Source: Rhodococcus sp. H36-A4 (GTDB taxonomy: Bacteria; Actinomycetota; Actinomycetes; Mycobacteriales; Mycobacteriaceae). Taken from it: a DNA stretch of 64,000 bases. The position numbers and the translations under genes are program-made. The stretch is from the NCBI RefSeq assembly GCF_027158005.1, contig NZ_JAPVLQ010000011.1, forward strand, positions 1 through 64,000. The letters are read 5' to 3'. A model generated the notes under the pieces. It was not told the DNA's origin, did not search any database, and saw only the letters and a list, made by a program, of their open reading frames with translations. Position 1 is the stretch's first letter; every line of letters begins with the position of its first letter. Shown piece by piece: positions 28,291-33,251 of this stretch.

Positions 28291-28578
28291 AGTGACAAAG
28301 AGAGGCAGTCCTTCGCCAACAAAACCGCCGAACATGTCTAGAACCGCACCCGCACGAAACTCGCTCCCGAACTCCAACGCTCAGCACTGCGCAAACTGCT
28401 GATTCTCGACGCCGCGGACGACGTGAACGACCTCCGCGTCCCACCCGGCAACAGACTCGAAAAACTCAGCGGTGACCGCACCGGTCAACACAGCATCGGC
28501 ATCAACCAGCAATGGCGCATCTGCTCTATCTGGACACCCGCGGGACCCATCAACGTAGAAATCGTCGACCACCACTAG
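28291..28578 (+). pseudogene. higB: HigB-type (RelE/ParE fold) toxin gene, broken by an in-frame stop
   Basis: The 3' two thirds read as a HigB toxin: LAPELQRSALRKLLILDAA, PPGNRLEKLSGD and QQWRICSIWTP...VEIVDHH, ending at 28578. The 5' part in the same frame reads SDKERQSFANKTAEHV and is then stopped by TAG at 28339-28341. No usual start codon or MIRSF-like N-terminus is seen. HigB cleaves mRNA on ribosomes; without its N-terminal part it should be inactive. The intact antitoxin gene follows 42 bases later. Confidence 0.75.
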
Positions 28579-28619
28579 AACGACAAGGAGCAACCACCAG
28601 GCCAGACACCGACACCATC

Positions 28620-28904
28620 ATGGAGCCCATCCATCCCGGCGAGATCCTCCTCGAGGACTACCCCAAACCACTCGGCATCACCAAACACAAACTTGCCGTT
28701 GCCATCGCCGTACCCCAGAGACGAATCAACGAAATAGTCCACGGAACCAGACGCATCTCCCCCGACACCGCACTACGCCTCGCCCGCTCCTTCAGCACCA
28801 CCGAACGCTTCTGGCTCAACCTCCAAAACCGGCACGACATCGAGACCCAACGCACCCAACTGACCCACACACTCGAACAGATCATTCCGCTCAAAACTGC
28901 GTGA
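28620..28904 (+). CDS. higA: HigA-family antitoxin
   Basis: A protein of about 94 residues with a HigA/XRE helix-turn-helix: HPGEILLEDYPKPLGITKHK, VPQRRINEIVHGTRRIS and FSTTERFWLNLQNRHD are all diagnostic. In this family the toxin gene comes first, and the antitoxin binds both the toxin and the promoter. Here the upstream toxin gene is broken, so higA may survive as an orphan regulator. The ATG at 28620 is the natural start next to the conserved PIHPGEIL. Confidence 0.85.
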   Translation: MEPIHPGEILLEDYPKPLGITKHKLAVAIAVPQRRINEIVHGTRRISPDTALRLARSFSTTERFWLNLQNRHDIETQRTQLTHTLEQIIPLKTA

Positions 28905-29844: not shown

Positions 29845-30669
29845 ATGAACTATGAGCGGTGGGAGCGGTCGACGGAATGGCCGCTTGCTGGAGCAGCTTT
29901 GACGTTTCTCGCGATTTACGCGTGGACGGTGCTGACTCAACCAAGTGGACTGAGCGGCAGAATTGCCGAAAACGCCGTCCTCGCGATCTGGGTAATATTC
30001 GGTATCGACTACCTCGTTCGACTGACTCTCGCCGAACAACGAAAACGCTGGTTCGCTCTGCATCTTCACGAATTGGCCATCGTTGTCCTGCCCATATTGC
30101 GCCCGCTCCGACTCCTACGCCTGCTGACCTTGGTCAGTTTCCTGCAACGGTCAATCGGCGGCGCCCTGCGCGGACGAGTTGTCACGTACGCGATCGCAGG
30201 AACATTACTTTTGATCTTTGTCGCATCCCTGGCGATGTACGATGCCGAACGCACAACCCCGGAATCCACCATCAAAACATTCCCCGACGCACTGTGGTGG
30301 GCAGCCGCAACGGTGACCACAGTCGGCTACGGCGACTACGCCCCCACCACAGTCACCGGCCGATGCATCGCAGTGGGACTGATGATCGCCGGCATCGCCC
30401 TGCTCGGCGTGGTCACCGCCACTCTGGCATCATGGCTGGTGCAGAAGGTCGCCGAACAAGACGACCAGAACCAAGCAGCAACGCATGCCCAGATCGCCGA
30501 CCTCACTCGGGAGATCGTTGCTCTGCGAGCAGCCCTCAGTGCACCTTCAACTACGAACAATGCTCACGAACGCGGTGCCCTCGAGTCCGTTGCGGCGGCC
30601 GACTCGCGATCACCGGCTTCCGGGGCGGACGGCACCCACGGCTTGAGTGGTTGCAGCACTGTGCGGTAG
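29845..30669 (+). CDS. voltage-gated-type potassium channel (Kch-like)
   Basis: A 274-residue ion channel. Several membrane helices precede a pore region with the K+ selectivity filter TVGYGD (TTVGYGDYAPTT) and a final pore-lining helix (IAVGLMIAGIALLGVVTATLAS, split here as IAVGLMIAGIALL and GVVTATLAS). An S4-like stretch with regularly spaced arginines (LRPLRLLRLLTLV) suggests a voltage-sensor relic. A cytoplasmic coiled-coil-like tail follows (QIADLTREIVALRAAL). Its last 106 bases overlap the end of the convergent TerD-nuclease gene, an unusually long tail-to-tail overlap. Confidence 0.9.
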   Translation: MNYERWERSTEWPLAGAALTFLAIYAWTVLTQPSGLSGRIAENAVLAIWVIFGIDYLVRLTLAEQRKRWFALHLHELAIVVLPILRPLRLLRLLTLVSFLQRSIGGALRGRVVTYAIAGTLLLIFVASLAMYDAERTTPESTIKTFPDALWWAAATVTTVGYGDYAPTTVTGRCIAVGLMIAGIALLGVVTATLASWLVQKVAEQDDQNQAATHAQIADLTREIVALRAALSAPSTTNNAHERGALESVAAADSRSPASGADGTHGLSGCSTVR

Positions 30670-32567
30670 AACTCGTCGACACCGTCGGTGATGCTCCCGA
30701 TGAACCCCGCCGCCGAACCGGACCGCTTGCTTCCCATCTTCGTCGGCGCCGTCAACGTGAACCGCGTGAGCACACTGACCCGGCCCGCCGTCAAAGACTT
30801 CGCATCCCCGCGGACCGTCGCCAGACTCTCACACGAAATCTCCGCCGCATCCGAGAACACCGCCTCCACCAAAGTCTCCGCAGGCGCATCCTTGAGTTGT
30901 TTTATCAGCCAAGACGTTCGCTTGAGCGCAGTCCCATCATCGGGTGCGTCGATCGCGGTGCTGCACTGAATCTTGTTGGTCCGCAAATCTGCCTCGACCG
31001 TCAAATCACCAGCAGCATCGGGAATGCGCAGCGTCGCCGCCAACGCTCCAGTCGACGCAAGCCGCTCGACTAGGTACTCGTTTCTGGCCTGAGGATCGCC
31101 GCTCAACTTACGCGGCAAATGATATTTCACGCTCGCACCCAACTCCGCAGTCATGCGCAGCGCCAGATGCCGCGACAACGACGCCCAAGTGTTGGCCACC
31201 GCCAACCCTTTTGCATCACTGGGCCGCAACGTCCCGGCAGCCACCGAATCACGAACCGCCACCCAATGGCGACCCATATCCACGAACTCCGTCGCCCCCG
31301 ACTTCGGATGCGTCAGGTACCGCACGAACTCGTCGAGAATCCACACCTGCAATGGATCCGTCAGACCGCCATGAGAGAGCAACATTCGAGCTTCGTAAAT
31401 GACCTCGGACCACGAAATGTGACGCAGTGCAACTTTCGTGAGCTTGGACTTGCTCACCTCCACCGGCAACTCCCCCGTAGACGCGGGAATATCGTTGGAC
31501 AAACTGAGCACCACCTCGTATTTGTGTCGGCGCGCTACATCGAGATAATTCTCCAACTGTTCCTTCTGCAACCGGCCACTACCGGTCTTCACCTCTAGCA
31601 ACGCAGTCCACACGTGCCCGGCACGCGAGACCCGAAACACTCCGTCGGGGATGACCTTGCCTTCGCCTTTCACGAACGGCACCTCCAGATAGCCTTCGAA
31701 CGGCCCCGCCGGTGCCCCCGCTCGCGAGCAGATCGCGCGTGCAAAGGGCCGGACAGCCTGCATCGTCGCAATCAGCGCCGACGTTGCTCGCTTCTCCTGC
31801 TCCTCCCCCGACCCCACACCGGAAATCGAGAACAACCGAGCGCTCTGCCATGTCTCCGCGCCCGCAAGAGTGAACTGTGGCATCGCCGCCTTCTTCGCGG
31901 TCGGCTTCTTCGTGCGGACCCCGCGTTTGGGCGCATCGACAGTGTTCAACGCGACCTCGACAATTTCGCCGTCAGCTGCGACGGTGCGGGTGGTCGCCTC
32001 GACGACCTCGGCGACGACGATGTCCTCGGTAGCCTCTGCGGCTTCGCTATCGTCGACATCGACTCCGAAGTCAGCGGCCAACCCTGCCAAACCTGATTGC
32101 CAGCCCTGCCCCACAGCACGAAGCTTCCAGGAACCGTCTCGTCGATAGATTTCACCGAAGACCAACGCTCGCTCGGTATCCGTGTCCGCGGTGATGAACT
32201 CTCCGAGAACCGAACCCGACTGATCACGCACCTGCAACGCGAGCTTTCCGAACTCCCCTAACGCCAGATCACTCGAACTGCCAGCGATCACAATCTTCAC
32301 GACGTCAACCGGCACCGCGGCCAGCTGAATCGAGATCCGCTCCTGTTTACCCTCATCGGTACTACTGCTACCCAAATAGCGAACCGAGGCTTCCGCGGAC
32401 TCGGACTGGTTGTAAAACACAAAGTCGGCATCCGAGCGGACCTTGTCGTCCACGCCCACCAGCAACGCGGACGCATCGAGGTCGCGATCCGAATCGACCC
32501 ACGAGACAACGATATCGAGGACGCTCGTCTCCTCTGGTAGCGACACATTCTGACCTTTTGCCAACAT
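30564..32567 (-). CDS. TerD-domain protein fused to a PD-(D/E)XK-type nuclease domain
   Basis: A protein of about 667 residues. Residues ~1-175 are a TerD (tellurite-resistance/stress) domain: MLAKGQNVSL, DLDASALLVGVDDKVRSDADFVFYNQ split as DLDASALLVG and SDADFVFYNQ, then VVKIVIAGSS and ALVFGEIYRRDGSWKLRAVGQG. A Lys/Ala-rich linker follows. Around residues 295-350 the sequence shows a PD-(D/E)XK nuclease signature: VIPDGVF, then LLEVKTGSG (E-x-K), then QLENYLDVA. The C-terminal 250 residues are helical and unassigned. TerD domains bind Ca2+ and are known to associate with DNA-processing enzymes; this fusion suggests a stress- or phage-responsive nuclease. ATG 32567 matches the conserved TerD start. 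Confidence 0.75.
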   Translation of the reverse strand: MLAKGQNVSLPEETSVLDIVVSWVDSDRDLDASALLVGVDDKVRSDADFVFYNQSESAEASVRYLGSSSTDEGKQERISIQLAAVPVDVVKIVIAGSSSDLALGEFGKLALQVRDQSGSVLGEFITADTDTERALVFGEIYRRDGSWKLRAVGQGWQSGLAGLAADFGVDVDDSEAAEATEDIVVAEVVEATTRTVAADGEIVEVALNTVDAPKRGVRTKKPTAKKAAMPQFTLAGAETWQSARLFSISGVGSGEEQEKRATSALIATMQAVRPFARAICSRAGAPAGPFEGYLEVPFVKGEGKVIPDGVFRVSRAGHVWTALLEVKTGSGRLQKEQLENYLDVARRHKYEVVLSLSNDIPASTGELPVEVSKSKLTKVALRHISWSEVIYEARMLLSHGGLTDPLQVWILDEFVRYLTHPKSGATEFVDMGRHWVAVRDSVAAGTLRPSDAKGLAVANTWASLSRHLALRMTAELGASVKYHLPRKLSGDPQARNEYLVERLASTGALAATLRIPDAAGDLTVEADLRTNKIQCSTAIDAPDDGTALKRTSWLIKQLKDAPAETLVEAVFSDAAEISCESLATVRGDAKSLTAGRVSVLTRFTLTAPTKMGSKRSGSAAGFIGSITDGVDEFYRTVLQPLKPWVPSAPEAGDRESAAATDSRAPRS

Positions 32568-32852
32568 CGGTGAACTCACGAACGCACTCCAATCGCAACC
32601 GCGGACTCTCAATGAAACAGACTAGCCGGACCGTTAGCAGCGCACAGAAACCAGTGCTCAGTTCATTCAAACGAATGACCGGCCGTGTGCGGAATTCAGC
32701 GCACACCAGCCTTGTTGTTCCTGTGCAATGACCAAAGCGGACTCCTCGCTTGCCGGACGAGGACGCCCACGCGATCGAAACACACATTCCCGTAGCCGAA
32801 ATCGCGGGCTTCTCCTCGCCCTCTGGTGAGCAAGTAGTTGCGGGCTGGCGTC

Positions 32853-33251
32853 GTGACCAAGCGGAAGTGGTATGACAACCCCACCGTCGACCGATGGGGA
32901 ACTGTTTATCTATCAGTGGTTTCGGTCGTGCTGGTCGGGCCGCAGATCGTCGGCAACGTCATCGACGAGCCCTCACCGTGGAACATCACATTCGCTGTTC
33001 TATTTCTCGTGGCGTTTGCCATCATTGCCACGTCTTTCGTGCGGCAGTGTCGAAGACGCAATCGCGCCTCCTCGCCCGAGGTGACACGGGTCGAACCCAG
33101 CAGTGTTCCCACGCGCGAAGTCTGGAAAGCTAAGACCTCGTCGTCGTCACGAATATCCGCGATCAAAAAGCTGCGCGAAAGCTACCCCGGTCTTGGCCTT
33201 CGCGAAGCCGCGGATCTTGTAGACGACACAACCGACCCGCCGAACCTGTAA
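32853..33251 (+). CDS. small membrane protein with ribosomal L7/L12-like C-terminal motif
   Basis: About 132 residues from GTG 32853. Two adjacent membrane segments (around residues 15-33 and 43-62) are followed by a basic linker and a C-terminal stretch, RISAIKKLRESYPGLGLREAADLVDD. In two parts (RISAIKKLRES, GLGLREAADLV) this matches the ribosomal L7/L12 C-terminal helix pattern, which recurs in uncharacterised actinobacterial membrane proteins. The function is unknown. A TTG at 32838 is an alternative start; no clear ribosome-binding site distinguishes them. Confidence 0.6.
   Translation: MTKRKWYDNPTVDRWGTVYLSVVSVVLVGPQIVGNVIDEPSPWNITFAVLFLVAFAIIATSFVRQCRRRNRASSPEVTRVEPSSVPTREVWKAKTSSSSRISAIKKLRESYPGLGLREAADLVDDTTDPPNL

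Follow-up and report, generated by a model that had tools for sequence, protein, structure and literature searches.

What does a TerD domain do at the front of a putative nuclease? The question is raised by a gene of the soil actinobacterium Rhodococcus sp. H36-A4, which lies on the minus strand of the 64,000-nucleotide stretch of contig NZ_JAPVLQ010000011.1 analysed here (the window; contig C2 of the 4.65-Mb genome in our numbering). A preliminary description of the window had read its product as an N-terminal TerD domain joined to a PD-(D/E)XK nuclease core and had suggested a Ca2+- or stress-gated, possibly anti-phage effector. Conservation among relatives and an AlphaFold model confirmed that the architecture is real and conserved and that both domains had been correctly recognised; the gating and anti-phage parts of the earlier interpretation found no support. 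The open frame extends from 32612 to 30564, where the stop codon ends. The protein had been started at the ATG at 32567, giving 667 residues, and residue numbers throughout count that ATG as 1. A GTG at 32579, 12 bases further upstream, is most likely the true start, because, of the six closest relatives compared, five conserve GTG-AGT-TCA-CC and one differs from it by a single base, a start codon is absent at the ATG position in several relatives, and a GGAG stands 7 bases upstream of the GTG. The whole gene would then span 30564..32579 and encode 671 amino acids. Its closest named relative is a protein of Rhodococcus sp. 1168, with 97% identity over residues 226-667.

The nuclease domain (residues 240-424; 31296..31850, minus strand) was delimited from the model, fold comparison and conservation. 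Exclusion of 10 partial sequences from 149 distinct family members left 139 near-full-length relatives, in all of which P307, D308, E325, K327, Q337, E258, E295, W320 and Y341 are identical. In a 31-row alignment, identity between members and the window protein falls as low as 34%. The invariant residues include E258 in the first helix of the nuclease fold (31794..31796), D308 of the PD motif (31644..31646), the glutamate and lysine of the (D/E)XK motif E325-V-K327 (31587..31595) and Q337 in the helix after the ExK strand (31557..31559), all on the minus strand. Since these key residues never vary, the signatures PDG (307-309), EVK (325-327) and Q..LENYL (337-343), from which the nuclease core had been proposed, exceed what chance would produce in the sequence. 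The AlphaFold model of the protein (predicted local distance difference test score, pLDDT, 83) was compared with known structures by one structure aligner, and 31 of the 50 matches listed for the modelled nuclease domain were to restriction-type nucleases, with a restriction-endonuclease-like core fold recognised. The nuclease core of the preliminary description, including the conservation of its D, E and K residues, was thus borne out by both approaches. No profile match of this domain to any solved chain was found at E values up to 10. A Pfam scan of 31 members, with E values up to 1 accepted, gave weak matches to VRR_NUC (PF08774) over the PD/ExK region in 18 members (best E 0.0017) and to Tox-REase-7 (PF15649) in 13. 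The window protein itself matched both over the PD/ExK stretch but scored below the cut-off for each, with 11.8 bits for VRR_NUC (12.6 for residues 240-667 alone; cut-off 23.8) and 13.4 bits for Tox-REase-7 (14.4 in a second scoring; cut-off 25).

The TerD domain (residues 1-174; 32046..32567, minus strand) is divergent and clearly recognisable: PF02342 matched residues 2-167 with 135.9 bits (E 1.5e-39), well above its curated cut-off of 25.3, and the solved TerD chains 3ibz and 2kxt were matched at E 1.1e-31 and 1.7e-30, respectively, in agreement with the first assignment. No NCBIfam model matched the window protein. The domain is without the canonical acidic loop GDNxTGEGEGDDE, which we take to be the Ca2+ binder of TerD (the title of 2kxt says calcium-binding). 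Neither GDN nor GDDE of that loop occurs in any of 100 fused TerD domains. Of 19 further distinct TerD domains taken from this and related genomes, 13 have GDN and 13 have GDDE, and an Asp at position 67 is present in 14 of these 19 and in one of the 100. Loss of the loop is not unique to the fusion, since GDDE is also absent from six of the other TerD domains, most of them from tandem or long TerD proteins. D31 and D48 are retained in 98 and 96 of the 100 fused members, respectively. Ca2+ gating of the fused protein, as had been envisaged, is therefore weakened by the sequence comparison and not supported, with the canonical loop missing from every fused member and these two aspartates still present. 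Conservation of W147, R150, G153, G155 and G159 in 99-100 of the 100 fused members suggests that TerD is nevertheless a working domain.

Between TerD and the nuclease lies a variable linker modelled with low confidence (residues 175-239; 31851..32045, minus strand), and the gap between the two domains ranges from 47 to 152 residues across the 100 fused members. The C-terminal region (residues 425-667; 30567..31295, minus strand) was modelled with low confidence in its last 17 residues. Within it, residues 486-646 (30630..31112, minus strand) were modelled in the order helix, three strands, helix, three strands, helix, making this domain a candidate chaperone-like fold of the YbjN/type-III-chaperone kind ('TY-chaperone'). 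We found no sequence link of the domain to a solved protein (best E 0.33). Pfam matches to it, MIase in 13 of 89 members and others, were set aside, being weak and having no relation to the fold of the model.

Selection has acted on all three domains. The ratio of nonsynonymous to synonymous substitution rates (dN/dS) was 0.04-0.08 for the nuclease and 0.06-0.11 for the C-terminal domain in seven pairs of sequences, and 0.07-0.11 for TerD in the four of seven pairs with a computable dS. For the linker a value was obtained in six pairs: five lay at 0.21-0.40, and the closest pair, on very few changes, gave 1.04. Estimated in this way, purifying selection holds for each domain, and because dN/dS is low in all three, the pattern is unlike that of a fast-evolving effector.

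A survey of architectures revealed a family that is widespread in actinobacteria and that exists in fused and unfused forms. Carriers made up 30 of 151 genomes in a sample of the family, 56 of 394 in the class and 19 of 396 in the phylum; these samples overlap and each includes the window's genome, and phyla beyond Actinomycetota were covered by a narrow scan for close relatives. In the genus sample the nuclease gene is patchy (22 of 37 genomes). Among 72,556 plasmid records 11 contain relatives; the annotation reads 'TerD family protein' in 10 of these and is missing in the other. TerD is present in the same frame in 100 of the 139 near-full-length members and absent from it in 39. Four of the latter appear to be split genes, three (L013, L035, L047) having a TerD frame just upstream and one (L034) having none in the available data, which leaves 35 unfused members, in 29 of which the nuclease domain begins at most 66 residues from the start of the frame. 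Pieces or internal stops were seen in the nuclease gene at L086 (G103), G445:C11, G919:C1, G1042:C1 and G498:C165, suggesting gene decay in some lineages or assembly errors. One member (L029) comes from a contig titled Rhodococcus sp. JCM 9791 that the taxonomy classes as Cyanobacteriota, and is probably from a mislabelled or mixed assembly.

A nuclease tree was built from 98 rows, of which 70 are fused, 25 unfused and 3 split. On it the TerD label changes once, on a branch with support 100/96, and a single change was enough in each of 200 bootstrap trees; one change also sufficed when the long Streptomyces branch was removed (support 92, quick method). The simplest reading of the tree would be a single gain of TerD by the nuclease, because all eight rows that come from beyond the class have the unfused form.

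The fused form was limited to TerD-rich genomes among those checked, which is a strong pattern. PF02342 was searched in 52 of the 94 different carrier genomes found, chosen by hand to cover both forms. All 25 genomes with the fused form hold 5-19 TerD matches including the fused copy, that is, at least four further TerD matches, and 26 of the 27 with the unfused form have no TerD match, the remaining one (G278) having one. The pattern recurred in the family to which G437 belongs, where 41 of 197 sampled genomes carry the nuclease and 34 carry TerD. Three of the copies are fused, and their genomes (G224, G287 and G1052) have 8, 7 and 4 TerD matches, respectively; 35 of the other 38 carriers, some with the gene in pieces, have no TerD, and G278, G1013 and G1066 have one each, elsewhere in the genome. 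Four TerD-rich genomes of this sample (G1009, G1045, G1048 and G1068) carry neither form of the nuclease. The window's own genome has six other TerD matches, on contigs C22, C25 and C27, and none elsewhere on C2. Other TerD architectures in it include a 482-residue frame with two TerD domains (G000:C22:311822-312973) and a 595-residue frame with one TerD and further sequence (G000:C27:35801-36280). In one genome from each of three genera (g10, g16 and g18), a ter cluster lies ~17-27 kb from the fused gene and is not operonic with it, and the fused gene stands in a conserved order before SDR and cobalamin-type genes, named by reading the sequences. At these loci (L296-L301) a stretch of ~30 kb takes in the SDR gene, the cobalamin-type genes and the ter cluster, and the fused gene marks one of its ends. 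In G148, another genome of the family, the TerD matches listed for the same contig are ~310-320 kb from the fused gene.

The immediate neighbours of the gene in the window follow a more local pattern. An ion-channel gene (29845..30669, plus strand; Ion_trans_2, 1.2e-17) is convergent with the TerD-nuclease gene and overlaps its 3' end by 106 bases. It was found near the nuclease only in close Rhodococcus relatives, at nine loci. Since it is upstream and divergent (within 1.6 kb) at six of these and downstream and convergent at three, a flip of one of the two genes is suggested in that group; the two are not a fixed pair, as the ion-channel gene is in 13 of the 37 genomes of the genus sample as against 22 for the nuclease. 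Further along is a HigA-like antitoxin gene (28310-28904, plus strand; HTH_3), preceded by what looks by eye like a HigB-like toxin frame carrying an in-frame stop near its start. On the other side, divergent from the TerD-nuclease gene, a small protein (32838-33251, plus strand) has a weak match, below cut-off, to the C-terminal domain of ribosomal protein L7/L12. A conserved operon partner was rejected, several of the larger neighbour families following the local synteny of related species.

A defence setting was examined in the same way. The window protein had no match in PADLOC 2023 at E up to 10, and among 31 members one had a match, at E 0.058. Three genes on each side of 20 loci (120 genes, E up to 1e-10) gave six PADLOC families, each in one of the 120 genes. 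An equal number of control genes, drawn from 20 hand-placed regions elsewhere in these genomes, gave 37 families. The 25 control families listed are mostly PD-T4-6 models with one gene each, possibly the same gene. A defence island was accordingly rejected as an argument, on a crude count that argues against an excess only. A phage gene was rejected too, there being no phage match and no relative confirmed among the 35 stretches in a scan of viral contigs.

The reading we favour, at about even chances, is that of a Ter-linked, metal-dependent putative nuclease for nucleic-acid processing at times of stress. The protein would be a metal-dependent PD-(D/E)XK nuclease carrying TerD at its N-terminus and, at its C-terminus, a chaperone-like domain that may bind a partner protein or peptide. 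The core of nuclease and C-terminal domain without TerD is probably the older form; TerD probably joined it once, and the fused form would have been kept in genomes with a set of other TerD proteins. There, TerD may dock the nuclease onto resident Ter/TerD assemblies, or read the same ligand, so that stress from chemicals or metals, or stress on DNA, would bring the nuclease into place or activate it. It would then process host, or invading, nucleic acid, and its C-terminal domain would engage a partner protein. We infer that the nuclease is active and has DNA as its substrate, and likewise the docking, the trigger by stress and what the C-terminal domain does. A more specific version, about which we are tentative, is that through this protein the actinobacterial Ter system acts directly as a nuclease: a nuclease-chaperone that once stood alone would have come under Ter control by capturing TerD, and would be retained only where a Ter assembly recruits or licenses it.

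Several points weigh against the favoured reading. Nuclease activity is predicted from sequence and model, and a TerD without the canonical acidic loop makes the ligand uncertain. In the window the gene shares no operon with ter genes (terC, PRTase, HAD or another terD). Across the family it has no conserved neighbour, since even the most frequent gene family outside the core occurs at just 13 of 86 loci. The genomes compared are related and the gene tree shows a single fusion event, so that the association with TerD-rich genomes does not amount to many independent observations. As for that event, the root of the nuclease tree is not fixed, and only with a root placed among unfused rows does the TerD branch mark a gain; the tree program also flagged that the long branches of Streptomyces and Nocardiaceae join. 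A tree of TerD alone, with the fused rows and 21 other TerD rows (19 distinct), needs two changes for the fused rows, one origin also being possible. In addition, L049, counted as fused, retains an in-frame TerD remnant of only 22 residues.

Other explanations have to account for the same observations. A DNA-repair or structure-specific nuclease, in which TerD is a passive module for stability or localisation, would fit the 35 unfused members, whose genomes mostly have no TerD, as well as the strong purifying selection, and according to PMC3575483 the YbjN-like protein DR1245 partners the SSB-like protein DdrB. With its gene missing from most of the genomes sampled, the protein does not belong to the core repair enzymes, and the conserved TerD residues argue against a passive domain; we regard this explanation as rather improbable. 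An anti-phage effector, as first proposed, would have TerD sense Ca2+ or a nucleoside-like signal linked to infection and release the nuclease on phage or host DNA. Passages of PMC3710099 describe a TerD-dependent anti-phage system with McrBC, tying some TerD systems to anti-phage operons that include McrBC by comparative genomics. TerD is suggested as a ligand-binding sensor in parts of PMC7159879, where nucleotide derivatives are named as possible ligands, and of PMC7824862, which places Ter components in jumbo phages. The patchiness of the gene in the genus and its relatives on plasmids would also suit such a role. The flanks have no excess of defence genes, neither a phage match nor a viral-contig relative was found, dN/dS is low throughout, no fused member has the canonical loop, and synteny beside cobalamin-type genes is stable in the one genome read from each of three genera. 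On this balance we think an anti-phage function unlikely.

Since fold alone reveals no function, a restriction-type fold might also act on a target other than DNA, such as RNA, or serve as a binding module without cleavage. The weak matches to VRR_NUC and Tox-REase-7, and one to Mrr_cat, would leave room for this, the two scored on the window protein being below cut-off. The metal-binding and catalytic set D308, E325 and K327 is invariant, which would be needless without catalysis, and we give this explanation little chance.

If the protein is such a direct nuclease of the Ter system, it would physically connect the sensing of stress by Ter to the processing of DNA. The role of TerD has long been unclear, and the fusion offers a concrete test of whether Ter acts on nucleic acid and of how TerD controls a partner, for which the unfused form, in genomes mostly without TerD, is a natural control. 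That control, the single fusion branch and the restriction to TerD-rich genomes among those checked are the most informative new points, and the domains are now assigned for a widespread family called only 'TerD family protein' in plasmid records. Ter stress-response systems were reportedly treated in 2012 by Anantharaman, Iyer and Aravind, in a paper whose title is said to link Ter to DNA processing. The reference lists of PMC10853773 and PMC12839542 include that paper. Among the papers listed by our literature search none is on a TerD-nuclease fusion, and the 2012 paper may contain a mention.

The C-terminal domain has no above-chance sequence match to YbjN/AmyR, type III secretion chaperones or predicted TY-chaperone domains, and its structural Z scores are in a range also reached by common arrangements. 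With Ter stress-response systems the protein has the TerD domain in common, but here in a single gene that in the window lies outside a ter operon. With the PD-(D/E)XK nucleases AF1548 (1y88), the small subunit of R.BspD6I, the cleavage domain of FokI, Card1 and McrC, it shares the core fold and the PD...ExK motif, whereas its partner domains differ from theirs. With TerD proteins (PF02342; 3ibz, 2kxt) it is alike in fold and sequence over residues 2-171, and differs from them in its missing GDNxTGEGEGDDE loop and in its fusion to a nuclease.
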